Assembly: GCA_964019135.1 (NCBI GenBank)
Contig: OZ025264.1
Location: 36,355,994 to 36,419,993, forward strand
Length of the DNA stretch: 64,000 nt
Direction of reading: 5' to 3'
From: Arenicola marina
Lineage: Eukaryota; Annelida; Polychaeta; Arenicolidae
A program made the position numbers and the translations under genes. This document shows positions 29,785 to 64,000 of this stretch, in pieces. The stretch's first letter is position 1. The number at the start of each line of letters is the position of its first letter. Below the pieces are notes generated by a model that was given only the letters and a program-made list of their open reading frames with translations, made no database searches and was not told the DNA's origin.

Positions 29785-30017
29785 ATGGAGACTGAAGTTT
29801 TGAGGCCAAGGCGGCACAGTGGCTGCTATGCTGTGTATGTGCTTATCATCCTGCTGGTGGCATACCTGCTTAACCAGCTGGACCGGTACCTGCTGAGCGT
29901 GGTGACCAGGCCCATGGCACAGGAGATCCACTATGGAGACCTGCAGTGCCTGCACAACGAGTCGTTCCTGGGAAACCACTCAGATGCTAATTCATGCCAA
30001 AATGGAACAGAAGCAAG
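29785..30017 (+). CDS. transporter exon 1 (coding), residues 1-78
   Basis: The ATG at 29785 follows an acceptor at 29770. The exon encodes METEVLRPRRHSGCYAVYV, helix 1 (LIILLVAYLLNQLDRY) and an extracellular loop with DLQC and three Asn-glycosylation sequons. It ends GAAGCAAG with donor GTAACT, phase 2. An in-frame ATG at 29740 lies upstream of the acceptor and so is probably intronic. Confidence 0.85.
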
Positions 30018-36000: not shown

Positions 36001-39000
36001 GGCGGCATCGTGGGCGTCCTGCTGGGGGGCTTCATCTCCGACAGGGTCGTCAAGAAGGTCGGGCCGCACGCCAGGCTCCTGGTGCTTGTCGTCAGCCAGG
36101 TAGGCACGCCACGTCTCCCCACGCCTCGCCACGCCTCGCCACGCCAGGCTCCTGGTGCTTGTCGTCACCCAGGTAGGCACGCCACGTCTCGCCACGCCTC
36201 GCCACGCCAGGCTCCTGGTGCTTGTCGTCAGCCAGGTAGGCACGCCACGTCTCCCCACGCCTCGCCACGCCTCGCCACGCCAGGCTCCTGGTGCTTGTCG
36301 TCAGCCAGGTAGGCACGCTACGTCTCCCCACGCCTCGCCACGCCACGCCTCGCCAGGCTCCTGGTGCTTGTCGTCAGTCAGGTAGGCACGCTACGTCTCC
36401 CCACGCCTCGCCACGCCACGCCTCGCCACGCCAGGCTCCTGGTGCTTGTCGTCAGCCAGGTAGGCACGCCACGTCTCCCCATGCCTCGCCACGCCTCGCC
36501 ACGCCAGGCTCCTGGTGCTTGTCGTCACCCAGGTAGGCACGCCACGTCTCACCACGCCTCGCCACGCCAGGCTCCTGGTGCTTGTCGTCAGCCAGGTAGG
36601 CACGCCACGTCTCCCCACGCCTCGCCACGCCTCGCCACGCCAGGCTCCTGGTGCTTGTCGTCAGTCAGGTAGGCACGCTACGTCTCCCCACGCCTCGCCA
36701 CGCCACGCCTCGCCACGCCAGGCTCCTGGTGCTTGTCGTCAGCCAGGTAGGCACGCCACGTCTCCCCATGCCTCGCCACGCCTCGCCACGCCAGGCTCCT
36801 GGTGCTTGTCGTCACCCAGGTAGGCACGCCACGTCTCACCACGCCTCGCCACGCCAGGCTCCTGGTGCTTGTCGTCAGCCAGGTAGGCACGCCACGTCTC
36901 CCCACGCCTCGCCACGCCTCGCCACGCCAGGCTCCTGGTGCTTGTCGTCACCCAGGTAGGCACGCCACGTCTCGCCACGCCTCGCCACGCCAGGCTCCTG
37001 GTGCTTGTCGTCAGTCAGGTAGGCACGCAACGTCTCCCCACGCCTCGCCACGCCAGGCTCCTATGGCTTGTCGTCAGCCAGGTAGGCACGCCACGTCTCC
37101 CCACGCCTCGCCACGCCTCGCCACGCCAGGCTCCTGGTGCTTGTCGTCAGCCAGGTAGGCACGCCACGTCTCCCCACGCCTCGCCACGCCTCGCCACGCC
37201 AGGCTCCTGGTGCTTGTCGTCAGCCAGGTAGGCACGCCACGTCTCCCCATGCCTCGCCACGCCTCGCCACGCCAGGCTCCTGGTGCTTGTCGTCAGCCAG
37301 GTAGGCACGCCACGTCTCCCCACGCCTCGCCACGCCTCGCCACGCCAGGCTCCTGGTGCTTGTCGTCAGCCAGGTAGGCACGCCACGTCTCCCCATGCCT
37401 CGCCACGCCTCGCCACGCCAGGCTCCTGGTGCTGGTCAGCCAGGTAGGCATGCCACGTCTCCCCTCGCCACGCCTCGCCACGCAACGTCTTCCCTCGCCA
37501 CGCCTCGCCATGCCAAGCTCAAGATCACTCTCCCTTATTGTCGTTTGACGCCTGTAGCGTCACGGAGAGCATGCTTATTGCACTGTGCACGTCATGACTG
37601 CTGATGTAACTTGTTCTTACGGCCGAGATTTTTCAATCAGTGTAAAGTGTTACTAATGAAAGGACGTAGGACAATAGAAATATAACCTTCCTTGTAAAAG
37701 AAACCCTAGTATATTTAGCAAAGGAAATTAAATGATTGGGTGTTTGAGGCCGCTTTTGTGCACAAACGAGATAATATGCGCCAAGGGACAACACGGGACG
37801 ATGAATAAATAAAACATGCCACGTGATTAGACGCCCAGGTCCGCTTTCAAACCCAGGACCTGTTGGTCTGCGGTCCACTGCGCCATCCACTTCACCAGGG
37901 AATCTCACCTTTCAGAAAACAGCGCTGTGAATTGGTGCATACATGCATATCATGAAGTGCTAGCCATTGGTGCATACATACCTATCATGAAGTGCTAGCC
38001 ATTGGTGCATACATACCTATCATGAAGTGCTAGCCATTGGTGCATACATACGTATCATGAAGTGCTAGCCATTGGTGCATACATACGTATCATGAAGTGC
38101 TAGCCATTGGTGCATACATACGTATCATGAAGTGCTAGCCATTGGTGCATACATACGTATCATGAAGTGCTAGCCATTGGTACATACATACTTATCATGA
38201 AGTGCTAGCTATTGGTACATACATACGTATAATGAAGTGCTAGCCATTGGTGCATACATACGTATCATGAAGTGCTAGCCATTGGTGCATACATAGTTAG
38301 GTCGTATCATGAAGTCCTAACCATTGGTGTATACAGCCTTATGTTTTATGTGTTGGTTTCTTCAGGTTGTGGCTGCCCCCTGTGTTGCCGGCGCTCTATA
38401 TTTCAGCCCGCCGTGGGCCTACCTCAGCCTTATACCTGGCTACATCTTTGGTAAGCAAACACTCGCCATCACACACATGATTCAATCAAATTACAAAGCT
38501 TTGTTTAATACTGTTTGTCGTTGTATTTTGATGTATTCATATATAGATATTATTACTGCCGGGCGCCCTATTCGCTATTTACTTTTATAAATCAAGGTAT
38601 TGATAATAAAGGTTCCTTTCCGCCACAGCGTCTCCAGCACGTAGTGTTGGTGCTTGTATTGTTTTGCTGAGTAGACAGTTTGACTGGGGAAGCCGGGTCG
38701 TGTCTTCTAATCCTTGCCGCACCCCCCACCCCCAGGTGAGATGTGGGTGTCGATCGCGCTGACCGTGCTGGTGGAGCTCGTGCCCACCCCCCTGAGGGCG
38801 TCCTCGGTGGCCGTCTACCTCTTCATCATCAGCAACATCGGCGGCAACTCCACCCTGCTCGTGCCTCCCCTCACCCAGGCCTTCCTCGGCAGCGGCCGTC
38901 ACGCCACAGAGGCCCTCAGAGGTAGGTCCCCTCGTCTCTTAGTGCTCGTGCCTCCCCTCACCCAGGCCTTCCAGGGCAGCGGCCTCCAGGACATAGAGGC

Positions 39001-42000
39001 CCTCAGAGGTAGGTCCCCTCGTCCCTTAGTGCTCGTGCCTCCCCTCACCCAGGCCTTGCAGGGCAGCGGCCTCCAGGACATAGAGGCCCTCAGAGGTAGG
39101 TCCCCTCGTCCCTTAGTGCTCGTGCCTCCCCTCACCCATGCCTTCCAGGGCAGCGGCCTCCAGGACATAGAGGCCCTCAGAGGTAGGTCCCCTCGTCTCT
39201 TAGTGCTCGTGTCTCCCCTCACCCAGGCCTTCCAGGGCAGCGGCCTCCAGGACATAGAGGCCCTCAGAGGTAGGTCCCCTCGTCCCTTAGTGCTCGTGCC
39301 TCCCCTCACCCAGGCCTTGCAGGGCAGCGGCCTCCAGGACATAGAGGCCCTCAGAGGTAGGTCCCCTCGTCTCTTAGTGCTCGTGTCTCCCCTCACCCAT
39401 GCCTTCCAGGGCAGCGGCCTCCAGGACATAGAGGCCCTCAGAGGTAGGTCCCCTCGTCTCTTAGTGCTCGTGTCTCCCCTCACCCATGCCTTCCAGGGCA
39501 GCGGCCTCCAGGACATAGAGGCCCTCAGAGGTAGGTCCCCTCGTCTCTTAGTGCTCGTGTCTCCCCTCACCCAGGCCTTCCAGGGCAGCGGCCTCCAGGA
39601 CATAGAGGCCCTCAGAGGTAGGTCCCCTCGTCCCTTAGTGCTCGTGCCTCCCCTCACCCAGGCCTTGCAGGGCAGCGGCCTCCAGGACATAGAGGCCCTC
39701 AGAGGTAGGTCCCCTCGTCTCTTAGTGCTCGTGTCTCCCCTCACCCAGGCCTTGTAGAGCAGCAGCCTCCAGGACATAGAGGCCCTCAGAGGTAGGTCCC
39801 CTCGTCTCTTAGTGCTCGTGTCTCCCCTCACCCATGCCTTCCAGGGCAGCGGCCTCCAGGACGTAGAGGCCCTCAGAGGTAGGTCCCCTCGTCCCTTAGT
39901 GTTCGTGCCTCCCCTCACCCAGGCCTTCCAGGGCAGCGGCCTCCAGGACATAGAGGCCCTCAGAGGTAGGTCCCCTCGTCCCTTAGTGTTCGTGCCTCCC
40001 CTCACCCAGGCCTTGCAGGGCAGCGGCCTCCAGGACATAGAGACCCTCAGAGGTAGGTCCCCTCGTCTCTTAGTGCTCGTGTCTCCCCTCACCCAGGCCT
40101 TGTAGAGCAGCAGCCTCCAGGACATAGAGGCCCTCAGAGGTAGGTCCCCTCGTCTCTTAGTGCTCGTGTCTCCCCTCACCCATGCCTTCCAGGGCAGCGG
40201 CCTCCAGGACGTAGAGGCCCTCAGAGGTAGGTCCCCTCGTCCCTTAGTGTTCGTGCCTCCCCTCACCCAGGCCTTCCAGGGCAGCGGCCTCCAGGACATA
40301 GAGGCCCTCAGAGGTAGGTCCCCTCGTCCCTTAGTGTTCGTGCCTCCCCTCACCCAGGCCTTCCAGGGCAGCGGCCTCCAGGACATAGAGGCCCTCAGAG
40401 GTAGGTCCCCTCATCTCTTAGTGCTCGTGCCTCCCCTCACCCAGGCCTTCCTCGGCAGCGGCCTCCAGGACATAGAGGCTCTCAGAGGTAGGTCCCCTCG
40501 TCCCTTAGTGTTCGTGCCTCCCCTCACCCAGGCCTTCCAGGGCAGCGGCCTCCAGGACATAGAGGCCCTCAGAGGTAGGTCCCCTCGTCCCTTAGTGTTC
40601 GTGCCTCCCCTCACCCAGGCCTTGCAGGGCAGCGGCCTCCAGGACATAGAGGCCCTCAGAGATAGGTCCCCTCATCTCTTAGTGCTCGTGCCTCCCCTCA
40701 CCCAGGCCTTGCAGGGCAGCGGCCTCCAGGACATAGAGGCCCTCAGAGGTAGGTCCCCTCATCTCTTAGTGCTCGTGCCTCCCCTCACCCAGGCCTTCCT
40801 CCGCAGCGGCCTCCAGGACATAGAGGCCCTCAGAGGTAGGTCCCCTCGTCTCTTAGTGCTCGTGCCTCCCCTCACCCAGGCCTTCCAGAGCAGCGGCCTC
40901 CAGGACATAGAGGCCCTCAGAGGTAGGTCCCCTCGTCTCTTAGTGCTCGTGTCTCCCCTCACCCAGGCCTTCCAGGGCAGCGGCCTCCAGGACATAGAGG
41001 CCCTCAGAGGTAGGTCCCCTCGTCTCTTAGTGCTCGTGTCTCCCCTCACCCAGGCCTTCCAGGGCAGCGGCCTCCAGGACATAGAGGCCCTCAGAGGTAG
41101 GTCCCCTCGTCTCTTAGTGCTCGTGCCTCCCCTCACCCAGGCCTTCCAGGGCAGCGGCCTCCAGGACATAGAGGCCCTCAGAGGTAGGTCCCCTCGTCTC
41201 TTAGTGCTCGTGCCTCCCCTCACCCAGGCCTTCCAGAGCAGCGGCCTCCAGGACATAGAGGCCCTCAGAGGTAGGTCCCCTCGTCTCTTAGTGCTCGTGC
41301 CTCCCCTCACCCAGGCCTTCCAGGGCAGCGGCCTCCAGGACATAGAGGCCCTCAGAGATAGGTCCCCTCATCTCTTAGTGCTCGTGCCTCCCCTCACCCA
41401 GGCCTTCCAGGGCAGCGGCCTCCAGGACATAGAGGCCCTCAGAGGTAGGTCCCCTCATCTCTTAGTGCTCGTGCCTCCCCTCACCCAGGCCTTCCTCCGC
41501 AGCGGCCTCCAGGACATAGAGGCCCTCAGAGGTAGGTCCCCTCGTCTCTTAGTGCTCGTGCCTCCCCTCACCCAGGCCTTCCAGAGCAGCGGCCTCCAGG
41601 ACATAGAGGCCCTCAGAGGTAGGTCCCCTCGTCTCTTAGTGCTCGTGTCTCCCCTCACCCAGGCCTTCCAGGGCAGCGGCCTCCAGGACATAGAGGCCCT
41701 CAGAGGTAGGTCCCCTCGTCTCTTAGTGCTCGTGTCTCCCCTCACCCAGGCCTTCCAGGGCAGCGGCCTCCAGGACATAGAGGCCCTCAGAGGTAGGTCC
41801 CCTCGTCCCTTAGTGCTCGTGCCTCCCCTCACCCAGGCCTTGCAGGGCAGCGGCCTCCAGGACATAGAGGCCCTCAGAGGTAGGTCCCCTCGTCTCTTAG
41901 TGCTCGTGCCTCCCCTCACCCAGGCCTTGCAGGGCAGCGGCCTCCAGGACATAGAGGCCCTCAGAGGTAGGTCCCCTCGTCTCTTAGTGCTCGTGCCTCC

Positions 42001-45000
42001 CCTCACCCAGGCCTTCCTCGGCAGCGGCCTCCAGGACATAGAGGCCCTCAGAGGTAAGTCCCCTCGTATCTTAGTGCTCGTGTCTCCCTTCACCCAGGCC
42101 TTGCAGGGCAGCGGCCTCCAGGACATAGAGGCCCTCAGAGGTAGGTCCCCTCGTCCCTTAGTGCTCGTGTCTCCCCTCACCCAGGCCTTCCTCGGCAGCG
42201 GCCTCCAGGACATAGAGGCCCTCAGAGGTAGGTCCCCTCGTCTCTTAGTGCTCGTGTCTCCCCTCACCCAGGCCTTGTAGAGCAGCGGCCTCCAGGACAT
42301 AGAGGCCCTCAGAGGTAGGTCCCCTCGTCTCTTAGTGCTCGTGCCTCCCCTCACCCAGGCCTTGCAGGGCAGCGGCCTCCAGGACATAGAGGCCATCAGA
42401 GATAGGTCCCCTCGTCTCTTAGTGCTCGTGTCTCCCCTCACCCAGGCCTTGTAGAGCAGCGGCCTCCAGGACATAGAGGCCCTCAGAGATAGGTCCCCTC
42501 GTCTCTTAGTGCTCGTGTCTCCCCTCACCCAGGCCTTCCTCGGCAGCGGCCTCCAGGACATAGAGGCCCTCAGAGGTAGGTCCCCTCGTCTCTTAGTGCT
42601 CGTGTCTCCCCTCACCCAGGCCTTCCCGGGCAGCGGCCTCCAGGACATAGATGCCCTCAGAGGTAGGTCCCTCGTCTCTTAGTGCTCGTGCCTCCCCTCA
42701 CCCAGGCCTTCCAGGGCAGCGGCCTCCAGGACATAGAGGCCCTCAGAGGTAGGTCCCCTCGTCTCTTAGTGCTCGTGTCTCCCCTCACCCAGGCCTTCCA
42801 GGGCAGCGGCCTCCAGGACATAGAGACCCTCAGAGGTAGGTCCCCTCGTCTCTTAGTGCTCGTGTCTCCCCTCACCCAGGCCTTCCAGGGCAGCGGCCTC
42901 CAGGACATAGAGGCCCTCAGAGGTAGGTCCCCTCGTCTCTTAGTGCTCGTGGGTCCCCTCACCCATGCCTTCCAGGGCAGCGGCCTCCAGGACATAGAGG
43001 CCCTCAGAGGTAGGTCCCCTCGTCTCTTAGTGCTCGTGTCTCCCCTCGCCCAGGCCTTCCAGGGCAGCGGCCTCCAGGACATAGAGGCCCTCAGAGGTAG
43101 GTCCCCTCGTCCCTTAGTGCTCGTGCCTCCCCTCACCCAGGCCTTGCAGGGCAGCGGCCTCCAGGACATAGAGGCCCTCAGAGGTAGGTCCCCTCGTCTC
43201 TTAGTGCTCGTGTCTCCCCTCACCCATGCCTTCCAGGGCAGCGGCCTCCAGGACATAGAGGCCCTCAGAGGTAGGTCCCCTCGTCTCTTAGTGCTCGTGT
43301 CTCCCCTCACCCAGGCCTTGTAGAGCAGCAGCCTCCAGGACATAGAGGCCCTCAGAGGTAGGTCCCCTCGTCTCTTAGTGCTCGTGTCTCCCCTCACCCA
43401 TGCCTTCCAGGGCAGCGGCCTCCAGGACATAGAGGCCCTCAGAGGTAGGTCCCCTCGTCTCTTAGTGCTCGTGTCTCCCCTCACCCAGGCCTTCCAAGGC
43501 AGCGGCCTCCAGGACATAGAGGCCCTCAGAGGTAGGTCCCCTCGTCTCTTAGTGCTCGTGTCTCCCCTCACCCATGCCTTCCAGGGCAGCGGCCTCCAGG
43601 ACATAGAGGCCCTCAGAGGTAGGTCCCCTCGTCCCTTAGTGTTCGTGCCTCCCCTCACCCAGGCCTTCCAGGGCAGCGGCCTCCAGGACATAGAGGCCCT
43701 CAGAGGTAGGTCCCCTCATCTCTTAGTGCTCGTGCCTCCCCTCACCCAGGCCTTCCTCGGCAGCGGCCTCCAGGACATAGAGGCCCTCAGAGATAGGTCC
43801 CCTCATCTCTTAGTGCTCGTGCCTCCCCTCACCCAGGCCTTCCAGGGCAGCGGCCTCCAGGACATAGAGGCCCTCAGAGGTAGGTCCCCTCATCTCTTAG
43901 TGCTCGTGCCTCCCCTCACCCAGGCCTTCCTCCGCAGCGGCCTCCAGGACATAGAGGCCCTCAGAGGTAGGTCCCCTCGTCTCTTAGTGCTCGTGCCTCC
44001 CCTCACCCAGGCCTTCCAGAGCAGCGGCCTCCAGGACATAGAGGCCCTCAGAGGTAGGTCCCCTCGTCTCTTAGTGCTCGTGTCTCCCCTCACCCAGGCC
44101 TTCCAGGGCAGCGGCCTCCAGGACATAGAGGCCCTCAGAGGTAGGTCCCCTCGTCTCTTAGTGCTCGTGTCTCCCCTCACCCAGGCCTTCCAGGGCAGCG
44201 GCCTCCAGGACATAGAGGCCCTCAGAGGTAGGTCCCCTCGTCTCTTAGTGCTCGTGCCTCCCCTCACCCAGGCCTTCCTCGGCAGCGGCCTCCAGGACAT
44301 AGAGGCCCTCAGAGGTAGGTCCCCTCGTATCTTAGTGCTCGTGTCTCCCTTCACCCAGGCCTTGCAGGGCAGCGGCCTCCAGGACATAGAGGCCCTCAGA
44401 GGTAGGTCCCCTCGTCTCTTAGTGCTCGTGTCTCCCCTCACCCAGGCCTTCCTCGGCAGCGGCCTCCAGGACATAGAGGCCCTCAGAGGTAGGTCCCCTC
44501 GTCTCTTAGTGCTCGTGTCTCCCCTCACCCAGGCCTTGTAGAGCAGCGGCCTCCAGGACATAGAGGCCCTCAGAGGTAGGTCCCCTCGTCTCTTAGTGCT
44601 CGTGCCTCCCCTCACCCAGGCCTTGCAGGGCAGCGGCCTCCAGGACATAGAGGCCCTCAGAGATAGGTCCCCTCGTCTCTTAGTGCTCGTGTCTCCCCTC
44701 ACCCAGGCCTTCCTCGGCAGCGGTCTCCAGGACATAGAGGCCCTCAGAGGTAGGTCCCCTCGTCTCTTAGTGCTCGTGTCTCCCCTCACCCAGGCCTTCC
44801 CGGGCAGCGGCCTCCAGGACATAGATGCCCTCAGAGGTAGGTCCCCTCGTCTCTTAGTGCTCGTGCCTCCCCTCACCCAGGCCTTCCAGGGCAGCGGCCT
44901 CCAGGACATAGAGGCCCTCAGAGGTAGGTCCCCTCGTCTCTTAGTGCTCGTGTCTCCCCTCACCCAGGCCTTCCAGGGCAGCGGCCTCCAGGACATAGAG

Positions 45001-48000
45001 ACCCTCAGAGGTAGGTCCCCTCGTCTCTTAGTGCTCGTGTCTCCCCTCACCCAGGCCTTCCAGGGCAGCGGCCTCCAGGACATAGAGGCCCTCAGAGGTA
45101 GGTCCCCTCGTCTCTTAGTGCTCGTGTCTCCCCTCACCCAGGCCTTCCAGGGCAGCGGCCTCCAGGACATAGAGACCCTCAGAGGTAGGTCCCCTCGTAT
45201 CTTAGTGCTCGTGCCTCCCCTCACCCAGGCCTTCCTCGGCAGCGGCCTCCAGGACGTAGAGGCCCTCAGAGGTAGGTCCCCTCGTATCTTAGTGCTCGTG
45301 CCTCCCCTCACCCAGGCCTTCCTCGGCAGCGGCCTCCAGGACGTAGAGGCCCTCAGAGGTAGGTCCCCTCGGTCTTAGTGCTCGTGTCTCCCCTCACCCA
45401 GGCCTTCCTCGGGAGCGGCCTCCAGTACATAGAGGCCCTCAGAGGTAGGTCCCCTCGTCTCTTAGTGCTCGTGCCTCCTCTCACCCAGGGCAGCGGCCTC
45501 CAGGACATAGAGGCCCTCAGAGGTAGGTCCCCTCATCTCTTAGTGCTCGTGTCTCCCCTCACCCAGGCCTTCCAGGGCAGCGGCCTCCAGGACATAGAGG
45601 CTCTCAGAGGTAGGTCCCCTCGTCTCTTAGTGCTCGTGTCTCCCCTCACCCAGGCCTTCCTCGGTAGCGGCCTCCAGGACATAGAGGCCCTCAGAGGTAG
45701 GTCCCCTCGTCTCTTAGTGCTCGTGCCTCCCCTTACCCAGGCCTTGCAGGGCAGCGGCCTCCAGGACATAGAGGCCCTCAGAGGTAGGTCCCCTCGTCCC
45801 TTAGTGCTCGTGCCTCCCCTCACCCAGGCCTTCCTCCGCAGCGGCCTCCAGGACATAGAGGCCCTCAGAGGTAGGTCCCCTCGTCTCTTAGTGCTCGTGC
45901 CTCCCCTCACCCAGGCCTTGCAGGGCAGCGGCCTCCAGGACATAGAGGCCCTCAGAGGTAGGTCCCCTCATCTCTTAGTGCTCGTGCCTCCTCTCACCCA
46001 GGGCAGCGGCCTCCAGGACATAGAGGCCCTCAGAGGTAGGTCCCCTCATCTCTTACTGCTCGTGTCTCCCCTCACCCAGGCCTTCCAGGGCAGCGGCCTC
46101 CAGGACATAGAGGCCCTCAGAGGTAGGTCCCCTCGTCTCTTAGTGCTCGTGTCTCCCCTCACCCAGGCCTTGCAGGGCAGCGGCCTCCAGGACATAGAGG
46201 CCCTCAGAGGTAGGTCCACTAGTCTCTTAGTGCTCGTGTCTCCCTTCACCCAGGCCTTGCAGGGCAGCGGCCTCCAGGACATAGAGGCCCTCAGAGGTAG
46301 GTCCCCTCGTCCCTTAGTGCTCGTGCCTCCCCTCACCCAGGCCTTCCTCCGCAGCGGCCTCCAGTACATAGAGGCCCTCAGAGGTAGGTCCCCTCGTCTC
46401 TTAGTGCTCGTGTCTCCCCTCACCCAGGCCTTCCTCGGCAGCGGCCTCCAGGACATAGAGGCCCTCAGAGGTAGGTCCCCTCGTATCTTAGTGCTCGTGT
46501 CTCCCCTCACCCAGGCCTTGCAGGGCAGCGGCCTCCAGGACATAGAGGCCCTCAGAGGTAGGTCCCCTCGTCTCTTAGTGCTCGTGCCTCCCCTCACCCA
46601 GGCCTTCCAGGGCAGCGGCCTCCAGGACGTAGAGGCCCTCAGAGGTAGGTCCCCTCGGTCTTAGTGCTCGTGTCTCCCCTCACCCAGGCCTTCCTCGGGA
46701 GCGGCCTCCAGTACATAGAGGCCCTCAGAGGTAGGTCCCCTCGTCTCTTAGTGCTCGTGCCTCCTCTCACCCAGGGCAGCGGCCTCCAGGACATAGAGGC
46801 CCTCAGAGGTAGGTCCCCTCATCTCTTAGTGCTCGTGTCTCCCCTCACCCAGGCCTTCCAGGGCAGCGGCCTCCAGGACATAGAGGCTCTCAGAGGTAGG
46901 TCCCCTCGTCTCTTAGTGCTCGTGTCTCCCCTCACCCAGGCCTTCCTCGGTAGCGGCCTCCAGGACATAGAGGCCCTCAGAGGTAGGTCCCCTCGTCTCT
47001 TAGTGCTCGTGCCTCCCCTTACCCAGGCCTTGCAGGGCAGCGGCCTCCAGGACATAGAGGCCCTCAGAGGTAGGTCCCCTCGTCCCTTAGTGCTCGTGCC
47101 TCCCCTCACCCAGGCCTTCCTCCGCAGCGGCCTCCAGGACATAGAGGCCCTCAGAGGTAGGTCCCCTCGTCTCTTAGTGCTCGTGCCTCCCCTCACCCAG
47201 GCCTTGCAGGGCAGCGGCCTCCAGGACATAGAGGCCCTCAGAGGTAGGTCCCCTCATCTCTTAGTGCTCGTGCCTCCTCTCACCCAGGGCAGCGGCCTCC
47301 AGGACATAGAGGCCCTCAGAGGTAGGTCCCCTCATCTCTTACTGCTCGTGTCTCCCCTCACCCAGGCCTTCCAGGGCAGCGGCCTCCAGGACATAGAGGC
47401 CCTCAGAGGTAGGTCCCCTCGTATCTTAGTGCTCGTGTCTCCCCTCACCCAGGCCTTGCAGGGCAGCGGCCTCCAGGACATAGAGGCCCTCAGAGGTAGG
47501 TCCACTAGTCTCTTAGTGCTCGTGTCTCCCTTCACCCAGGCCTTGCAGGGCAGCGGCCTCCAGGACATAGAGGCCCTCAGAGGTAGGTCCCCTCGTCCCT
47601 TAGTGCTCGTGCCTCCCCTCACCCAGGCCTTCCTCCGCAGCGGCCTCCAGTACATAGCGGCCCTCAGAGGTAGGTCCCCTCGTCTCTTAGTGCTCGTGTC
47701 TCCCCTCACCCAGGCCTTCCTCGGCAGCGGCCTCCAGGACATAGAGGCCCTCAGAGGTAGGTCCCCTCGTATCTTAGTGCTCGTGTCTCCCCTCACCCAG
47801 GCCTTGCAGGGCAGCGGCCTCCAGGACATAGAGGCCCTCAGAGGTAGGTCCCCTCGTCTCTTAGTGCTCGTGCCTCCCCTCACCCAGGCCTTCCAGGGCA
47901 GCGGCCTCCAGGACATAGAGGCCCTCAGAGGTAGGTCCCCTCGTCTCTTAGTGCTCGTGCCTTCCCTCACCCAGGCCTTCCTCAGCAGCGGCCTCCAGGA

Positions 48001-51000
48001 CATAGAGGCTCTCAGAGGTAGGTCCCCTCGTCTTTTAGTGCTCGTGCCTCCCCTCACCCAGGCCTTCCAGGGCAGCGGCCTCCAGGACATAGAGGCCCTC
48101 AGAGATAGGTCCCCTCGTATCTTAGTGGTCGTGCCTCCCCTCACCCAGGCCTTGCAAAGCAGCGGCCTCCAGGACATAGATGCCCTCAGAGGTAGGTCCC
48201 CTCGTCTGTTAGTGCTCGTGCCTCCCCTCACCCAGGCCTTCCTCGGCAGCGGCCTCCAGGACATAGAGGCCCTCAGAGGTAGGTCCACTCGTCTCTTAGT
48301 GCTCGTGCCTCCCCTCACCCAGGCCTTCCTCGGCAGCGGCCTCCAGGACGTAGAGGCCCTCAGAGGTAGGTCCCCTCGGTCTTAGTGCTCGTGTCTCCCC
48401 TCACCCAGGCCTTCCTCGGGAGCGGCCTCCAGTACATAGAGGCCCTCAGAGGTAGGTCCCCTCGTCTCTTAGTGCTCGTGCCTCCTCTCACCCAGGGCAG
48501 CGGCCTCCAGGACATAGAGGCCCTCAGAGGTAGGTCCCCTCATCTCTTAGTGCTCGTGTCTCCCCTCACCCAGGCCTTCCAGGGCAGCGGCCTCCAGGAC
48601 ATAGAGGCTCTCAGAGGTAGGTCCCCTCGTCTCTTAGTGCTCGTGTCTCCCCTCACCCAGGCCTTCCTCGGTAGCGGCCTCCAGGACATAGAGGCCCTCA
48701 GAGGTAGGTCCCCTCGTCTCTTAGTGCTCGTGCCTCCCCTTACCCAGGCCTTGCAGGGCAGCGGCCTCCAGGACATAGAGGCCCTCAGAGGTAGGTCCCC
48801 TCGTCCCTTAGTGCTCGTGCCTCCCCTCACCCAGGCCTTCCTCCGCAGCGGCCTCCAGGACATAGAGGCCCTCAGAGGTAGGTCCCCTCGTCTCTTAGTG
48901 CTCGTGCCTCCCCTCACCCAGGCCTTGCAGGGCAGCGGCCTCCAGGACATAGAGGCCCTCAGAGGTAGGTCCCCTCATCTCTTAGTGCTCGTGCCTCCTC
49001 TCACCCAGGGCAGCGGCCTCCAGGACATAGAGGCCCTCAGAGGTAGGTCCCCTCATCTCTTAGTGCTCGTGTCTCCCCTCACCCAGGCCTTCCAGGGCAG
49101 CGGCCTCCAGGACATAGAGGCTCTCAGAGGTAGGTCCCCTCGTCTCTTACTGCTCGTGTCTCCCCTCACCCAGGCCTTCCAGGGCAGCGGCCTCCAGGAC
49201 ATAGAGGCCCTCAGAGGTAGGTCCCCTCGTATCTTAGTGCTCGTGTCTCCCCTCACCCAGGCCTTGCAGGGCAGCGGCCTCCAGGACATAGAGGCCCTCA
49301 GAGGTAGGTCCACTAGTCTCTTAGTGCTCGTGTCTCCCTTCACCCAGGCCTTGCAGGGCAGCGGCCTCCAGGACATAGAGGCCCTCAGAGGTAGGTCCCC
49401 TCGTCCCTTACTGCTCGTGCCTCCCCTCACCCAGGCCTTCCTCCGCAGCGGCCTCCAGTACATAGAGGCCCTCAGAGGTAGGTCCCCTCGTCTCTTAGTG
49501 CTCGTGTCTCCCCTCACCCAGGCCTTCCTCGGCAGCGGCCTCCAGGACATAGAGGCCCTCAGAGGTAGGTCCCCTCGTATCTTAGTGCTCGTGTCTCCCC
49601 TCACCCAGGCCTTGCAGGGCAGCGGCCTCCAGGACATAGAGGCCCTCAGAGGTAGGTCCCCTCGTCTCTTAGTGCTCGTGCCTCCCCTCACCCAGGCCTT
49701 CCAGGGCAGCGGCCTCCAGGACATAGAGGCCCTCAGAGGTAGGTCCCCTCGTCTCTTAGTGCTCGTGCCTTCCCTCACCCAGGCCTTCCTCAGCAGCGGC
49801 CTCCAGGACATAGAGGCTCTCAGAGGTAGGTCCCCTCGTCTTTTAGTGCTCGTGCCTCCCCTCACCCAGGCCTTCCAGGGCAGCGGCCTCCAGGACATAG
49901 AGGCCCTCAGAGATAGGTCCCCTCGTATCTTAGTGGTCGTGCCTCCCCTCACCCAGGCCTTGCAAAGCAGCGGCCTCCAGGACATAGATGCCCTCAGAGG
50001 TAGGTCCCCTCGTCTGTTAGTGCTCGTGCCTCCCCTCACCCAGGCCTTCCTCGGCAGCGGCCTCCAGGACATAGAGGCCCTCAGAGGTAGGTCCACTCGT
50101 CTCTTAGTGCTCGTGCCTCCCCTCACCCAGGCCTTCCAGGGCAGCGGCCTCCAGGACATAGAGGCCCTCAGAGGTAGGTCCCCTCATCTCTTAGTGCTCG
50201 TGCCTCCCCTCACCCAGGTCTTGCAGGGCAGCGGCCTCCAGGACATAGAGGCCCTCAGTGGTAGGTCCCCTCGTCTCTTAGTGCTCGTGTCTCCCCTCAC
50301 CCAGGCCTTCCTCGGCAGCGGCCTCCAGGACATTGAGGCCCTCAGAGGTAGGTCCCCTCGTCCCTTAGTGCTCGTGCCTCCCCTCACCCAGGCCTTGCAG
50401 GGCAGCGGCCTCCAGGACATAGAGGCCATCAGAGGTAGGTCCCCTCGTCCCTTAGTGCTCGTGCCTCCCCTCACCCAGGCCTTCCAAGGCAGCGGCCTCC
50501 AGGATATAGAGGCCCTCAGAGGTAGGTCCCCTCGTCTCTTAGTGCTCGTGTCTCCCCTCACCCAGGCCTTCCTCGGCAGCGGCCTCCAGGGCAGGACATA
50601 GAGGCCCTCAGAGGTAGGTCCCCTCGTCTCTTAGTGCTCGTGTCTCCCCTCACCCAGGCCTTCCAGGGCAGCGGCCTCCAGGACATAGAGACCCTCAGAG
50701 GTAGGTCCCCTCGTCTCTTAGTGCTCGTGTCTCCCCTCACCCAGGCCTTCCTCGGCAGCGCCCCCCAGGACATAGAGGCCCTCAGAGGTAGGTCCCCTAG
50801 TCTCTTAGTGCTCGTGCCTCCCCTCACCCAAGCCTTGCAGGGCAGCGGCCTCCAGGACATAGAGGCCCTCAAAGGTAGGTCCCCTCGTCTCTTAGTGCTC
50901 GTGCCTCCCCTCACCCAGGCCTTCCTCGGCAGCGGCCTCCAGCACATAGAGGCCCTCAGAGGTAGGTCCCCTCGTCTTTTAGTGCTCGTGCCTCCCCTCA

Positions 51001-54000
51001 CCCAGGCCTTCCTCGGCAGCGGCCTCCAGGACATAGAGGCCATCAGAGGTAGGTCCCCTCGTCTCTTAGTGCTCGTGTCTCCCCTCACCCAGGCCTTCCT
51101 CGGCAGCGGCTTCCAGGACATAGAGGCCCTCAGAGGTAGGTCCCCTCGTCCCTTAGTGCTCGTGCCTCCCCTCACCCAGGCCTTCCTCGGCAGCGGCCTC
51201 CAGGACATAGAGGCCCTCAAAGGTAGGTCCCCTCGTCTCTTAGTGCTCGTGCCTCCCCTCACCCAGGCCTTCCTCGGCAGCGGCCTCCAGGACATAGAGG
51301 CCCTCAGAGGTAGGTCCCCTCGTCTCTTAGTGCTCGTGCCTCCCCTCACCCAGGCCTTCCTCGGCAGCGGCCTCCAGGACATAGAGGCCATCAGAGGTAG
51401 GTCCCCTCGTCTCTTAGTGCCCGTGTCTCCCCTCACCCAGGCCTTCCAGGGCAGCGGCCTCCAGGACATAGAGGCCCTCAGAGGTAGGTCCCCTCGTCTC
51501 TTAGTGCTTGTGCCTCCCCTCACCCAGGCCTTCCTCGGCAGCGGCCGCCAGGACATAGAGGCCCTCAGAGGTAGGTCCCCTCGTCTCTTAGTGCTCGTGC
51601 CTCCCCTCACCCAGGCCTTCCAGGGCAGCGGCCTCCAGGACATAGAGGCCCTCAGAGGTAGGTCCCCTCGTCTCTTAGTGCTCGTGCCTCCCCTCACCCA
51701 GGCCTTCCAGGGCAGCGGCCTCCAGGACATAGAGGCCATCAGAGGTAGGTCCCCTCGTCCCTTAGTGCTCGTGCCTCCCCTCACCCAGGCCTTCCAGGGC
51801 AGCGGCCTCCAGGACATAGAGGCCCTCAGAGGTAGGTCCCCTCGTCTCTTAGTGCTCGTGTCTCCCCTCACCCAGGCCTTCCAGGGCAGCGGCCTCCAGG
51901 ACATAGAGGCCCTCAGAGGTAGGTCCCCTCGTCTCTTAGTGCTCGTGCCTCCCCTCACCCAGGCCTTCCTCGGCAGCGGCCTCCAGGACATAGAGGCCCT
52001 CAGAGGTAGGTCCCCTCGTCTCTTAGTGCTCGTGTCTCCCCTCACCCAGGCCTTCCAGGGCAGCGGCCTCCAGGACATAGAGGCCCTCAGAGGTAAGTCC
52101 CCTCGTCTCTTAGTGCTCGTGTCTCCCCTCACCCAGGCCTTCCAAGGCAGCGGCCTCCAGGACATAGAGGCCCTCAGAGGTAGGTCCCCTCGTCTCTTAG
52201 TGCTCGTGTCTCCCCTCACCCAGGCCTTGCAGGGCAGCGGCCTCCAAGACATAGAGGCCCTTAGAGGTAGGTCCCCTCGTCTCTTAGTGCTCGTGTCTCC
52301 CCTCACCCAGGCCTTGCAGGGCAGCGGCCTCCAGGACATAGAGGCCCTCAGAGGTAGGTCCCCTCGTCTCTTAGTGCTCGTGCCTCCCCTCACCCAGGCC
52401 TTCCAGGGCAGCGGCCTCCAAGACATAGAGGCCCTCAAAGGTAGGTCCCCTCGTCTCTTAGTGCTCGTGCCTCCCCTCACCCAGGCCTTCCAGGGCAGCG
52501 GCCTCCAGGACATAGAGGCCCTCAGAGGTAGGTCCCCTCGTCTCTTAGTGCTCGTGTCTCCCCTCACCCAGGCCTTCCAAGGCAGCGGCCTCCAGGACAT
52601 AGAGGCCCTCAGAGGTAGGTCCCCTCGTCTCTTAGTGCTCGTGCCTCCCCTCACCCAGGCCTTGCAGGGCAGCGGCCTCCAAGACATAGAGGCCCTCAGA
52701 GGTAGGTCCCCTCGTCTCTTAGTGCTCGTGCCTCCCCTCACCCAGGCCTTCCAGGGCAGCGGCCTCCAGGACATAGAGGCCCTCAGAGGTAGGTCCCCTC
52801 GTCTCTTAGTGCTCGTGTCTCCCCTCACCCAGGCCTTGCAGGGCAGCGGCCTCCAAGACATAGAGGCCCTCAGAGGTAGGTCCCCTCGTCTCTTAGTGCT
52901 CGTGCCTCCCCTCACCCAGGCCTTCCTCGGCAGCGGCCTCCAGGACATAGAGGCCCTCAGAGGTAGGTCCCCTCGTCTCTTAGTGCTCGTGTCTCCCCTC
53001 ACCCAGGCCTTGCAGGGCAGCGGCCTCCAAGACATAGAGGCCCTCAGAGGTAGGTCCCCTCGTCTCTTAGTGCTCGTGTCTCCCCTCACCCAGGCCTTGC
53101 AGGGCAGCGGCCTCCAAGACATAGAGGCCCTCAGAGGTAGGTCCCCTCGTCTCTTAGTGCTCGTGTCTCCCCTCACCCAGGCCTTCCTCGGCAGCGGCCT
53201 CCAGGACATCGAGGCCCTCAGAGGTAGGTCCCCTCGTCTCTTAGTGCTCGTGCCTCCCCTCACCCAGGCCTTCCTCGGCAGCGGCCTCCAGGACATAGAG
53301 GCCCTCAGAGGTAGGTCCCCTCGTCTCTTAGTGCTCGTGTCTCCCCTCACCCAGGCCTTCCTCGGCAGCGGCCTCCAGGACATCGAGGCCCTCAAAGGTA
53401 GGTCCCCTCGTCTCTTAGTGCTCGTGCCTCCCCTCACCCAGGCCTTCCTCGGCAGCGGCCTCCAGGACATAGAGGCCCTCAGAGGTAGGTCCCCTCGTCT
53501 CTTAGTGCTCGTGCCTCCCCTCACCCAGGCCTTCCAGGGCAGCGGCCTCCAGGACATAGAGGCCCTCAGAGGTAGGTCCCCTCGTCTCTTAGTGCTCGTG
53601 TCTCCCCTCACCCAGGCCTTCCAGGGCAGCGGCCTCCAGGACATAGAGGCCCTCAGAGGTAGGTCCCCTCGTCTCTTAGTGCTCGTGTCTCCCCTCACCC
53701 AGGCCTTCCAGGGCAGCGGCCTCCAGGACATAGAGGCCCTCAGAGGTAGGTCCCCTCGTCTCTTAGTGCTCGTGTCTCCCCTCACCCAGGCCTTCCAGGG
53801 CAGCGGCCTCCAGGACATAGAGGCCCTCAAAGGTAGGTCCCCTCGTCTCTTAGTGCTCGTGCCTCCCCTCACCCAGGCCTTCCTCGGCAGCGGCCTCCAG
53901 GACATAGAGGCCCTCAGAGGTAGGTCCCCTCGTCTCTTAGTGCTCGTGCCTCCCCTCACCCAGGCCTTCCAGGGCAGCGGCCTCCAGGACATAGAGGCCC

Positions 54001-57000
54001 TCAGAGGTAGGTCCCCTCGTCTCTTAGTGCTCGTGCCTCCCCTCACCCAGGCCTTCCAGGGCAGCGGCCTCCAGGACATAGAGGCCCTCAGAGGTAGGTC
54101 CCCTCGTCTCTTAGTGCTCGTGTCTCCCCTCACCCAGGCCTTCCAGGGCAGCGGCCTCCAGGACATAGAGGCCCTCAGAGGTAGGTCCCCTCGTCTCTTA
54201 GTGCTCGTGTCTCCCCTCACCCAGGCCTTCCAGGGCAGCGGCCTCCAGGACATAGAGGCCATCAGAGGTAGGTCCCCTCGTCTGTTAGTGCTCGTGCCTC
54301 CCCTCACCCAGGCCTTCCAGGGCAGCGGCCTCCAGGACATAGAGGCCCTCAGAGGTAGGTCCCCTCGTCTCTTAGTGCTCGTGTCTCCCCTCACCCAGGC
54401 CTTCCAGGGCAGCGGCCTCCAGGACATAGAGGCCATCAGAGGTAGGTCCCCTCGTCTGTTAGTGCTCGTGCCTCCCCTCACCCAGGCCTTCCAGGGCAGC
54501 GGCCTCCAGGACATAGAGGCCCTCAGAGGTAGGTCCCCTCGTCTCTTAGTGCTCGTGTCTCCCCTCACCCAGGCCTTCCAGGGCAGCGGCCTCCAGGACA
54601 TAGAGGCCATCAGAGGTAGGTCCCCTCGTCTGTTAGTGCTCGTGCCTCCCCTCACCCAGGCCTTCCAGGGCAGCGGCCTCCAGGACATAGAGGCCCTCAG
54701 AGGTAGGTCCCCTCGTCTCTTAGTGCTCGTGCCTCCCCTCACCCAGGCCTTCCAGGGCAGCGGCCTCCAGGACATAGATGCCCTCAGAGGTAGGTCCCCT
54801 CGTCTGTTAGTGCTCGTGCCTCCCCTCACCCAGGCCTTCCAGGGCAGCGGCCTCCAGGACATAGAGGCCCTCAGAGGTAGGTCCCCTCGTCTCTTTGTGC
54901 TCGTGTCTCCCCTCACCCAGGCCTTCCAGGGCAGCGGCCTCCAGGACATAGAGGCCCTTCAGAGGTAGGTCCCCTCGTCTCTTAGTGCTCGTGTCTGCCC
55001 TCACCCAGGCCTTGCAGGGCAGCGGCCTCCAGGACATAGAGGCCCTCAGAGGTAGGTCCCCTCGTCTCTTTGTGCTCGTGTCTCCCCTCACCCAGGCCTT
55101 CCAGGGCAGCGGCCTCCAGGACATAGAGGCCCTCAGAGGTAGGTCCCCTCGTCTCTTAGTGCTCGTGTCTCCCCTCACCCAGGCCTTCCAGGGCAGCGGC
55201 CTCCAGGACATAGAGGCCCTTCAGAGGTAGGTCCCCTCGTCTGTTAGTGCTCGTGTCTCCCCTCACCCAGGCCTTCCAGGGCAGCGGCCTCCAGGACATA
55301 GAGGCCCTCAGAGGTAGGTCCCCTCGTCTCTTTGTGCTCGTGTCTCCCCTCACCCAGGCCTTCCAGGGCAGCGGCCTCCAGGACATAGAGGCCCTCAGAG
55401 GTAGGTCCCCTCGTCTCTTAGTGCTCGTGTCTCCCCTCACCCAGGCCTTCCAGGGCAGCAGCCTCCAGGACATGGAGGCCCTCAGAGGTAGGTCCCCTCG
55501 TCTCTTAGTGCTCGTGTCTCCCCTCACCCAGGCCTTCCAGAGCAGCGGCCTCCAGCACATAGAGGCCCTCAGAGGTAGGTCCCCTCGTCTCTTAGTGCTC
55601 GTGCCTCCCCTCACCCAGGCCTTCCTCGGCAGCGGCCTCCAGGACATAGAGGCCCTCAGAGGTAGGTCCCCTCGTCTCTTAGTGCTCGTGCCTCCCCTTA
55701 CCCAGGCCTTCCAGGGCAGCGGCCTCCAGGACATAGAGGCCCTCAGAGGTAGGTCCCCTCGTCTCTTAGTGCTCGTGCCTCCCCTCACCCAGGCCTTCCT
55801 CCGCAGCGGCCTCCAGGACATAGAGGCCATCAGAGGTAGGTCCCCTCGTCTCCTAGTGCTCGTGTCTCCCCTCACCCAGGCCTTGCAGGGCAGCGGCCTC
55901 CAGGACATAGAGGCCCTCAGAGGTAGGTCCCCTCGTCTCTTAGTGCTCGTGCCTCCCCTCACCCAGGCCTTCCAGGGCAGCGGCCTCCAGGATATAGAGG
56001 CCCTCAGAGATAGGTCCCCTCGTCTGTTAGTGCTCGTGCCTCCCCTCACCCAGGCCTTCTTCGGCAGCGGCCTCCAGGACATAGAGGCCCTCAGAGGTAG
56101 GTCCCCTCGTCTCTTAGTGCTCGTGTCTCCCCTCACCCAGGCCTTCCAGGGCAGCGGCCTCCAGGACATAGAGGCCATCAGAGGTAGGTCCCCTCGTCCC
56201 TTAGTGCTCGTGCCTCCCCTCACCCAGGCCTTCCAAGGCAGCGGCCTCCAGGACATAGAGGCCCTCAGAGGTAGGTCCCCTCGTCTCTTAGTGCTCGTGT
56301 CTCCCCTCACCCAGGCCTTCCAGGGCAGCGGCCTCCAGGACATAGAGGCCATCAGAGGTAGGTCCCCTCGTCTCTTAGTGCTCGTGTCTCCCCTCACCCA
56401 GGCCTTCCAGGGCAGCAGCCTCCAGGACATGGAGGCCCTCAGAGGTAGGTCCCCTCGTCTCTTAGTGCTCGTGTCTCCCCTCACCCAGGCCTTCCAGAGC
56501 AGCGGCCTCCAGGACATAGAGGCCCTCAGAGGTAGGTCCCCTCGTCTCTTAGTGCTCGTGCCTCCCCTCACCCAGGCCTTCCTCGGCAGCGGCCTCCAGG
56601 ACATAGAGGCCCTCAGAGGTAGGTCCCCTCGTCTCTTAGTGCTCGTGCCTCCCCTTACCCAGGCCTTCCAGGGCAGCGGCCTCCAGGACGTAGAGGCCCT
56701 CAGAGGTAGGTCCCCTCGTCTCTTAGTGCTCGTGCCTCCCCTCACCCAGGCCTTCCTCCGCAGCGGCCTCCAGGACATAGAGGCCATCAGAGGTAGGTCC
56801 CCTCGTCTCCTAGTGCTCGTGTCTCCCCTCACCCAGGCCTTGCAGGGCAGCGGCCTCCAGGACATAGAGGCCCTCAGAGGTAGGTCCCCTCGTCTCTTAG
56901 TGCTCGTGCCTCCCCTCACCCAGGCCTTCCAGGGCAGCGGCCTCCAGGATATAGAGGCCCTCAGAGATAGGTCCCCTCGTCTGTTAGTGCTCGTGCCTCC

Positions 57001-60000
57001 CCTCACCCAGGCCTTCTTCGGCAGCGGCCTCCAGGACATAGAGGCCCTCAGAGGTAGGTCCCCTCGTCTCTTAGTGCTCGTGTCTCCCCTCACCCAGGCC
57101 TTCCAGGGCAGCGGCCTCCAGGACATAGAGGCCATCAGAGGTAGGTCCCCTCGTCCCTTAGTGCTCGTGCCTCCCCTCACCCAGGCCTTCCAAGGCAGCG
57201 GCCTCCAGGACATAGAGGCCCTCAGAGGTAGGTCCCCTCGTCTCTTAGTGCTCGTGTCTCCCCTCACCCAGGCCTTCCAGGGCAGCGGCCTCCAGGACAT
57301 AGAGGCCATCAGAGGTAGGTCCCCTCGTCTCTTAGTGCTCGTGCCTCCCCTCACCCAGGCCTTCCAGGGCAGCGGCCTCCAGGACATAGAGGCCCTCAGA
57401 GGTAGGTCCCCTCGTCTCTTAGTGCTCGTGTCTCCCCTCGCCCAGGCCTTCCAGGGCAGTGGCCTCCAGGACATAGAGGCCCTCAGAGGTAGGTCCCCTC
57501 GTCTCTTAGTGCTCGTGCCTCCCCTCACCCAGGCCTTGCAGGGCAGCGGCCTCCAGGACATTGAGGCCCTCAGAGGTAGGTCCCCTCGTCCCTTAGTGCT
57601 CGTGCCTCCCCTCACCCAGGCCTTCCAGGGCAGCGTCCTCCAGGACATAGAGGCCATCAGAGGTAGGTCCCCTCGTCTCTTAGTGCTCGTGCCTCCCCTC
57701 ACCCAGGCCTTGCAGGGCAGCGGCCTCCAGGACATAGAGGCCCTCAGTGGTAGGTCCCCTCGTCTCTTAGTGCTCGTGCCTCCCCTCACCCAGGCCTTGC
57801 AGGGCAGCGGCCTCCAGGACATTGAGGCCCTCAGAGGTAGGTCCCCTCGTCCCTTAGTGCTCGTGCCTCCCCTCACCCAGGCCTTGCAGGGCAGCGGCCT
57901 CCAGGACATAGAGGTCCTCAGAGGTAGGTCCCCTCGTCTCTTAGTGCTCGTGTCTCCCCTCACCCAGGCCTTCCTCGGCAGCGGCCTCCAGGACATAGAG
58001 GCCCTCAGAGGTAGGTCCCCTCGTCCCTTAGTGCTCGTGCCTCCCCTCACCCAGGCCTTCCAGGGCAGCGGCCTCCAGGACATAGAGGCCCTCAGAGGTA
58101 GGTCCCGTCGTCCCTTAGTGCTCGTGCCTCCCCTCACCCAGGCCTTCCAGGGCAGCGGCCTCCAGGACATAGAGGCCCTCAGAGGTAGGTCCCCTCGTCT
58201 CTTAGTGCTCGTGTCTCCCCTCACCCAGGCCTTCCTCGGCAGCGGCCTCCAGGACATAGAGGCCCTCAGAGGTAGGTCCCCTCGTCCCTTAGTGCTCGTG
58301 CCTCCCCTCACCCAGGCCTTGCAGGGCAGCGGCCTCCAGGACATAGAGGCCCTCAGAGGTAGGTCCCCTCGTCTCTTAGTGCTCGTGTCTCCCCTCACCC
58401 AGGCCTTCCTCGGCAGCGGCCTCCAGCACATAGAGGCCCTCAGAGGTAGGTCCCCTCGTCTCTTAGTGCTCGTGTCTCCCCTCACCCAGGCCTTCCTCGG
58501 CAGCGGCCTCCAGCACATAGAGGCCCTCAGAGGTAGGTCCCCTCGTCTCTTAGTGCTCGTGTCTCCCCTCACCCAGGCCTTCCTCGGCAGCGGCCTCCAG
58601 CACATAGAGGCCCTCAGAGGTAGGTCCCCTCGTCTCTTAGTGCTCGTGCCTCCCCTCACCCAGGCCTTGCAGGGCAGCGGCCTCCAGGACATAGAGGCCC
58701 TGAGAGATAGGTCCCGTCGTCCCTTAGTGCTCGTGCCTCCCCTCACCCAGGCCTTCCAGGGCAGCGGCCTCCAGGACATAGAGGCCCTCAGAGGTAGGTC
58801 CCCTCGTCTCTTAGTGCTCGTGCCTCCCCTCACCCAGGCCTTGCAGGGCAGCGGCCTCCAGGACATAGAGGCCCTCAGAGATAGGTCCCGTCGTCCCTTA
58901 GTGCTCGTGCCTCCCCTCACCCAGGCCTTCCAGGGCAGCGGCCTCCAGGACATAGAGGCCCTCAGAGGTAGGTCCCCTCGTCTCTTAGTGCTCGTGTCTC
59001 CCCTCACCCAGGCCTTCCTCGGCAGCGGCCTCCAGCACATAGAGGCCCTCAGAGGTAGGTCCCCTCGTCTCTTAGTGCTCGTGCCTCCCCTCACCCAGGC
59101 CTTCCTCGGCAGCGGCCTCCAGCACATAGAGGCCCTCAGAGGTAGGTCCCCTCGTCTTTTAGTGCTCGTGCCTCCCCTCACCCAGGCCTTCCAGGGCAGC
59201 GGCCTCCAGGACATAGAGGCCCTCAGAGGTAGGTCCCCTCGTCTCTTAGTGCTCGTGCCTCCCCTCACCCAGGCCTTGCAGGGCAGCGGCCTCCAGGACA
59301 TAGAGGCCCTGAGAGATAGGTCCCGTCGTCCCTTAGTGCTCGTGCCTCCCCTCACCCAGGCCTTCCAGGGCAGCGGCCTCCAGGACATAGAGGCCCTCAG
59401 AGGTAGGTCCCCTCGTCTCTTAGTGCTCGTGCCTCCCCTCACCCAGGCCTTCCAGGGCAGCGGCCTCCAGGACATAGAGGCCCTCAGAGGTAGGTCCCCT
59501 CGTCTCTTAGTGCTCGTGCCTCCCCTCACCCAGGCCTTGCAGGGCAGCGGCCTCCAGGACATAGAGGCCCTCAGAGGTAGGTCCCGTCGTCCCTTAGTGC
59601 TCGTGCCTCCCCTCACCCAGGCCTTCCAGGGCAGCGGCCTCCAGGACATAGAGGCCCTCAGAGGTAGGTCCCGTCGTCCCTTAGTGCTCGTGCCTCCCCT
59701 CGGCCTCAAGGCGCATGGAAGCATCATGACCGTCGCTGGCATGTTTTGGTTCTTATGCCTCAGGGTGTCCGAACAGGTGCTTTCAAATTTCTGTATCTGA
59801 TTAAAATTTTCACAACATTCACGACTTTCCAAAATATTTGGATTTGTCTGCTGAACGGATAATTTCCCGCTTCTTAAACGCTAAATAACACGTACTTCGA
59901 GACCGTAGAGAAATATCTATCTATGCGCCATATCTTAAGTAATACCCGAAGCAACAAGAAGGTTCTATGATTGTCAGTATGTTAAAACCTAATACACATC

Positions 60001-63169: not shown

Positions 63170-63642
63170 TCAGGGGTAGTTGCACGTGTACGCCGCCTCG
63201 TCCCAGACCAGGCCGGGAGGGCAGTCCATGACGTAACACTGGCCCCACTCGCTGCACTGGACGAACTTGGTCGCGTCATGGTGCGGGAAGTAAAACTGTC
63301 CATTCATAGTGTTTTCTGGCGTGCACGGATTGTTTTCATCACAGTCGTAGCCCCCTGCACTGGAGGGAGGGGTTGGTGTCGGGGTTGTAGTCGTTGGCTT
63401 CGGGGTTGTCGTCGTTGGCTTCGGGGTTGTAGTTGCCGGTGTCGGGGTTGTAGTCGCTGGTTTCGGGGTTGTAGTCGTTGGTTTCGGGGTTTCAGTTGCC
63501 GGTTTCGGGGTTGTAGTCGTTGGTTTCGGGGTTTCAGTTGTTGGTTTCGGGGTTGTAGTCGTTGGTTTCGAGGTTGCAGTTGTTGGTTTCGGGGTTGTAG
63601 TCGTTGGTTTCGGGGTTGTAGTTGAACGTGGTGTCGTTATCA
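63170..63642 (-). CDS. secreted chitin-binding protein (chitinase-like), last exon, partial
   Basis: This minus-strand exon starts after the acceptor CTTCATTTCAG (ending at 63643) and stops at TGA 63170-63172. It encodes about 85 residues of Thr/Pro-rich linker (TTTPKPTTTTPKP repeats, an O-glycosylation-prone mucin-like spacer). A single peritrophin-A type chitin-binding domain (CBM14) follows, with six cysteines in YDCDENNPC, KFVQC, WGQC, VMDCPPGLVWD and YTCNYP. A mucin-like linker plus one C-terminal domain of this kind is the usual tail of animal GH18 chitinases, but the catalytic part lies outside the window, so a mucin or other chitin-binding protein remains possible. The protein would be extracellular. 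Confidence 0.85.
63368..63625 (-). repeat. 18-bp coding repeat (Thr/Pro linker)
   Basis: About 14 tandem 18-bp units encode TTTPKP-type hexapeptides with T/A, T/E and K/T substitutions. This is an in-frame coding minisatellite; unlike the others in the window it encodes a conventional mucin-like spacer. Confidence 0.85.
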
Positions 63643-64000
63643 CTGAAATGAAGATAACGTTCCCGGTAAGTGCCTGCTAACTATCCAGCACCCTTTTCCA
63701 TGACAGTTACAATCAATGCTAAACGTTGGAACCTGTCTAAAGCAATGCCAATAGTTAGAACAAAGACGTGCCTGAAGATATCACACCTAATATCACCCAA
63801 AAGCTCTATATCACAAACAAATATCACCCACAAGCTCTATATCACAAACAAATATCACCCACAACCTTTATATCACAAAACACACCACCCTCACAACAAA
63901 TGTCAAAGACTCCCTCACGCAACAAGGAACTTCTTGTTAGGGCTAAATGACGGAGTATGCAAACTGAACGAACTCTTCAAACATTGCAAATCCCACACTC
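63643..64000 (-). other. intron upstream of the chitin-binding exon
   Basis: AT-rich sequence with the 31-bp repeat. No further exon is recognisable before the window ends. Confidence 0.5.
63790..63882. repeat. 31-bp repeat, three copies
   Basis: AATATCACCCACAAGCTCTA then TATCACAAACA is repeated three times with few changes, in the intron upstream of the chitin-binding exon. Confidence 0.8.

Follow-up and report, generated by a model that had tools for sequence, protein, structure and literature searches.

Tandem repeats whose units span an exon–intron boundary have been described in genes of the cephalochordate amphioxus, where they are termed mirages (PMC3087553; PMC3902484). Adh3 data and reverse transcription PCR of globins suggest that splicing is undisturbed, and copy numbers in the globins and PGBD5 lie between 2 and 7. 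Here, we describe a 64,000-nt stretch of the annelid Arenicola marina (GCA_964019135.1, contig OZ025264.1, positions 36,355,994–36,419,993; hereafter the window, in whose coordinates positions are given), in which the last 66 nt of exon 7 of a predicted spinster-like MFS transporter gene and the first 21 nt of the following intron (GT...AG) form the unit of an array of 240 copies. The window is situated close to the end of contig C19 (38.2 Mb) in an 867-Mb assembly, which probably has 20 chromosome-size contigs, as C20 measures 33 Mb and C21 16 kb. As in the amphioxus mirages (Adh3, globins BflGb6 and BflGb9, PGBD5, troponin C), the unit spans the boundary and its copies carry the splice signal. 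The host is an annelid rather than a cephalochordate, but the host group is not part of the mirage definition, and the 87-bp array is an extreme mirage, biased to splice donors in our sample, whereas reports on amphioxus globins describe both boundaries.

Among the matches listed in our literature search (mostly without subscription papers), we found no description of donor-spanning arrays from an annelid or on a genome-wide scale, and exon-boundary minisatellites were described for amphioxus genes only, with small copy numbers where given. Earthworm metallothionein genes, likewise from an annelid, have repeat-filled introns, minisatellite arrays in intron 1 and fourth-exon duplications; arrays built from a splice donor are not described in the available part of that article (PMC12783039). 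A further related proposal, due to Rogers and cited in PMC3087553, is intron gain through tandem duplication of AG|GT proto-splice sites. Annelid mirages, with boundary-spanning arrays in three gene families and as many as 240 copies, offer a repeatable test of how the spliceosome chooses among identical donors, and the same cases bear on why donors, unlike acceptors, can be multiplied. Automated gene predictors will probably be misled at such exons.

Tandem Repeats Finder (TRF) placed the array at 38856–59701 with a period of 87, 240.2 copies and 94% matches. Splitting into units located 240 donor positions, spaced by exactly 87 nt in 226 of 239 intervals and otherwise by 78 (six cases), 86 (four), 88 (two) or 92 nt (one). 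The donor hexamer reads GTAGGT in 225 copies, GTAAGT in two and ATAGGT in 13, so that GT is kept in 227 of 240. The first-pass annotation, a model's reading of the letters alone, had already reported an exon end and donor multiplied about 240 times. This was confirmed, as were the donors it gave at 38922, 39009 and 39096, the TAG at 39755 and the 87-bp unit length; its division into about 60 exonic and 27 intronic nucleotides gave way to 66 and 21. The longest exact repeat within the array measures 812 bp and 107 of 239 units are distinct, which argues against a chance resemblance. The array boundaries are clean, and the flank at 59702–59962 has a single match in the whole assembly, namely itself; a second haplotype was therefore not seen in this assembly search. 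Intron 7, which carries the other 239 copies, is 23.2 kb long.

The gene model comprises eight exons and encodes a predicted protein of 500 residues, reproducing the earlier model; its phases are consistent and its junctions are GT-AG, except for intron 3 (GC-AG). The predicted protein contains a Pfam MFS_1 domain (8.8e-42), and its best PDB matches are 6e8j (E 2e-27, deposited as 'Major facilitator family transporter') and chains of SPNS2 and SPNS1. Given the MFS_1 domain and the spinster structures among its relatives, the sequence identifies it as a spinster-like MFS transporter. The sequence flanking the exon 7/8 junction is kept among homologues (12 of 54 read) and one homologue (P0007) contains, by eye, an apparent unspliced intron at this point; the intron position thus looks old, and intron 7 seems to have been enlarged rather than created. 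Tandem AG|GT copies are common to this locus and to proto-splice-site duplication, from which it differs in the seemingly old boundary.

The exon frame stays open across the first nine extra units and is closed by the TAG at 39755. As in-frame stops follow at 39755, 40103 and onward, only the first ten donors can yield an uninterrupted product, with possible lengths from 500 to 761 residues. The frame first breaks after donor 42663, the 44th; over its whole length, the array meets 188 stops when read in the exon frame and changes frame seven times. The former description of a 240-fold amplification "in frame" hence applies to the start of the array only. For codon variation, the 13 units of deviating length were dropped. 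In the exon-derived part of the remaining 226, each exactly 87 nt long, distinct variants comprised 35 nonsynonymous, 14 synonymous and one stop change, against 34.4, 14.0 and 1.6 expected without selection: the array codons vary in a near-neutral manner. Coding tandem repeats of the mucin-like type, by comparison, are in frame throughout, which the 87-bp array is not; as to coding constraint, the distinct variants are as without selection, and variant frequency is lowest at second codon positions. Arrays of mutually exclusive or cassette exons likewise place many exon-like copies in a row, but differ from this array with its unconstrained distinct variants and 21 nt of intron between copies.

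We surveyed splice sites in other genes by asking whether a 30-nt window centred on a donor recurred with at least 24 of 30 identical positions within the next 200 nt, with a mirrored procedure for acceptors. Among the first 60 of 77 genome-wide myosin-head exon matches, rule-based placement yielded 57 donors and 49 acceptors. Boundary-spanning repeats were present at 10 of 57 donors vs. one of 49 acceptors (p=0.010). Intronic control windows 150 nt away gave 12/57 on the donor side and 9/49 on the acceptor side; thus, donors did not differ from their own control (p=0.81), whereas acceptors did (p=0.016). Arrays cover donors at about the same rate as deep intron, so that a special pull towards donors was rejected; arrays merely fail to avoid them. 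The repeat profile stays roughly level as far as the donor and tapers off across the final 60–80 nt of the exon, and on the acceptor side it declines within the intron. Raw TRF overlap was discarded as a donor test, since four (L040, L059, L062, L096) of the 15 flagged among 60 myosin exons lay beyond the donor or were unrelated. Eleven flagged donor arrays remained after reading (one of them, L080, weak), including L082, which has just four exonic nucleotides and is missed by the window test. As a separate observation, adjacent myosin-head exon matches at C4:367768-384767 correspond to the same profile parts (~110–154 and 590–640) and have the look of alternative exons clustered within a myosin gene.

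The CCT chaperonins contributed 20 donors and ten acceptors from 49 exon matches, with C5:36718893 and C10:11072973 left out as both end inside unbroken frames, and L104 and L112, for which no proper donor was placed, counted as negative. Two of the 20 donors lay in boundary-spanning repeats (L101, L110), and there were two near misses, L100 (23/30, boundary-spanning by eye) and L116 (18/30). By eye, none of the ten acceptors was affected; the array at L122 stops just short of the site. With both sets joined, 12 of 77 donors stand against one of 59 acceptors (Fisher p=0.0067). Across 16 donor arrays (11 myosin, two CCT, three in the transporter gene), the first spacing was a multiple of three in five, compared to 5.3 expected by chance. 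In the other 11, myosins and a chaperonin among them, slipping to the second donor would therefore shift the frame.

We consider it likely that the array is a minisatellite grown from the exon 7 boundary of the spinster-like gene, with the first donor used and the array left intronic. On genomic evidence, the donor in use is most likely that at 38922. In a minisatellite-rich genome, tandem amplification would include donors as freely as other intron-side sequence. From a series of equal tandem donors, the first to be transcribed, next to the exon, would be chosen, and the other 239 copies would be removed with intron 7. Amplification could be tolerated at donors as first-donor use would leave extra copies harmless; acceptors multiplied upstream, in turn, would compete with the true acceptor. 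The array may then have been shaped by unequal exchange without selection on its codons, its unit amounting to 29 codons by chance. We infer both the unequal exchange and the way in which selection would produce the donor/acceptor asymmetry; arrays would take in donors and spare acceptors because the spliceosome would take the first of equal donors. In a designed library in human cells, the first of two equal consensus donors was predominantly used, and two acceptors showed no such preference (PMC6783452). The first-pass annotation left three options: transporters of variable length, a decoy for splicing, or the first site being used strictly. The near-neutral array codons, the 11 of 16 donor arrays whose first spacing would shift the frame and the sparing of acceptors but not donors favour the last. 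There is perhaps an even chance that the genome as a whole amounts to a natural saturation experiment on splice-site order, with about one donor in six inside an array of identical donors and acceptors spared. If true, this would demonstrate, in an intact animal, that the donor transcribed first prevails and that an intron can lengthen at no cost by multiplying its own donor.

Several observations weigh against this interpretation. With a search range of 150 nt, the acceptor deficit is 1/49 vs. 7/49 in the control (p=0.059), TRF alone reaches three of 60 myosin acceptor ends (L069, L079, L080; within 12 nt of the match start), of which L079 alone passes the window test and L080 is without a placed acceptor, and the CCT set taken by itself gives p=0.54, so that the asymmetry rests on small numbers. 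All intact array donors are about equally strong, and some leakage to later donors would therefore be expected. When variants are weighted by frequency, the exon-derived part is least variable at its second codon positions (0.015 vs. 0.042 and 0.036), hinting at coding constraint; in the intronic part this is reversed, with second positions varying most (0.044). The low frequency may reflect a few common variants spread through copying. Finally, the exon's own end reads GRHATEALR and the array version GLQDIEALR, owing to five nucleotide differences within ten (positions 42–51 of 66). None of the five exon-specific nucleotides occurs in any of 219 aligned array rows (some of them merged units), and the nearest unit is five differences away. 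At the five differing residues, the array consensus fits better in 49 of 53 homologues, worse in two and equally in two (one of 54 dropped for gaps; the relatives are not independent). Since the array consensus scores better, the array looks like the older version and the exon copy like the changed one, possibly because one event altered neighbouring sites in a variable loop; first-donor use would rather predict the exon as the conserved copy.

In the rival account of length-variable transporters, donors 2 to 10 would be used, always or partly, to add one to nine 29-residue blocks between helices 11 and 12, perhaps varying between individuals with array length. Donors 1–10 being in frame and free of stops, the array-like loop of the relatives and the quiet second codon positions speak somewhat for this. 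So does TTAGTG, which follows a pyrimidine-rich stretch in 230 of 239 units and thus allows in-frame 66-nt cassettes to be drawn. Were a later copy to abut helix 12, nothing would keep the first from drifting. Set against it are the distinct codon variants at their no-selection expectation, the frame shifts in most donor arrays and the preference for the first of tandem donors in human cells (PMC6783452). Moreover, one of the five scored positions (L/Q) itself varies inside the array, the homologues are not independent, and the clustered exon changes could stem from one event. On balance, we regard use of the later donors as unlikely, and first-donor use with an intronic array as the better account.

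A role of the array as RNA or DNA, with more than 200 strong donors acting as a U1 snRNP sink, a delay or a regulatory intron, would agree with the retention of GT in most copies. It appears very improbable in view of the 13 copies with AT, of many other unit positions that are as invariant as the donor in the aligned rows, and of the many arrays in the genome that lie away from any known exon. An assembly artefact, in the array or its copy number, is equally remote, for although an 812-bp exact repeat could be mis-assembled, the distinct units, the clean boundaries and similar arrays at further exons on different contigs argue otherwise.

Exons of the transporter gene and tandem arrays in the window and at myosin donors. 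Copies of the four myosin arrays were counted inside the fetched stretch only.
Feature	Position	Strand	Details	Basis
Exon 1	29785..30017	+	from ATG	gene model; start codon inferred
Exon 2	30601..30867	+	donor GG|GTCAGT at 30868	gene model
Exon 3	32918..33080	+	GC donor CAG|GCAAGT	gene model
Exon 4	35284..35530	+		gene model
Exon 5	35903..36099	+	donor CAG|GTAGGC at 36100	gene model
Exon 6	38366..38450	+		gene model
Exon 7	38736..38921	+	donor AGAG|GTAGGT at 38922	gene model
Exon 8	62089..62213	+	includes stop codon	gene model
21-bp array	30866..30939	+	3.5 copies; across exon 2 donor, 2 nt exonic	TRF
24-bp array	30965-32876	+	follows exon 2 donor array	TRF
50-bp array	33111..35108	+	intron 3; begins 30 nt past donor, no splice site spanned	TRF
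73-bp array	36067..37487	+	spacings 63/70/73/78; across exon 5 donor, 33 nt exonic	TRF + pattern
87-bp array	38856..59701	+	240 copies; first copy is the exon 7 end itself	TRF + unit splitting
37-bp array	60055..62081	+	54 copies; unit holds TGTAG|CC; extra partial copy enters exon 8 acceptor	TRF + pattern
Myosin donor array L045			62-bp unit; up to 49 exonic nt; 11 further copies	
Myosin donor array L068			42-bp unit; CAG|GTAAGA; 16 further copies	
Myosin donor array L082			28-bp unit; 23 further copies	
Myosin donor array L070			85-bp unit; GC donor; 8 further copies	

Counting only arrays that exceed three copies, the introns of this gene hold seven, four of which reach a splice site. The array at the exon 5 donor comprises 20 copies by pattern, mostly spaced by 73 or 63 nt and hence not frame-preserving; GTAGGC was present in 20 of 20 copies, with the search pattern itself containing GTAGGC. 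The 37-bp array forms an acceptor-side counterpart in intron 7, reading AGCC in 51 of its 54 copies and ATCC in three, again with the splice site included in the pattern. Overall, tandem arrays (non-overlapping TRF rows) make up 39.8 kb of the 64-kb window. Coverage ranged from 2% to 100% across 20 pieces of ~10 kb, four of which adjoin the window, and three pieces (L012, L014, L019) consisted entirely of tandem repeat, with units of 56, 34 and 139/414 bp, respectively.

Elsewhere in the window, an open frame on the minus strand (63173-63676) encodes a Thr/Pro repeat and, after it, a Cys-rich end, with a 21-bp repeat (63372-63622) inside; the Cys-rich end presumably resembles a chitin-binding domain. 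On the plus strand, 16218-18648 contains transposase-like and reverse-transcriptase-like frames, named by eye.

The last contig of the assembly is a mitochondrial genome of 15,942 bp, and its first 9 kb carry nad4L-nad4-rrnS-V-rrnL-nad1-nad3-nad2-cox1 on one strand (protein genes named by eye, rRNAs deduced from the gap around tRNA-Val), an order that we take to be the annelid ground pattern. On the strength of this order, an amphioxus origin was rejected; GFP gave no hits, which carries no weight since 14 control genomes had none either. Several small contigs (C443, C465, C504, C330, C652, C497) contain high-scoring protein kinase matches with in-frame TAA/TAG, and possibly derive from an organism in or on the worm, such as a ciliate, that reads these codons as residues.

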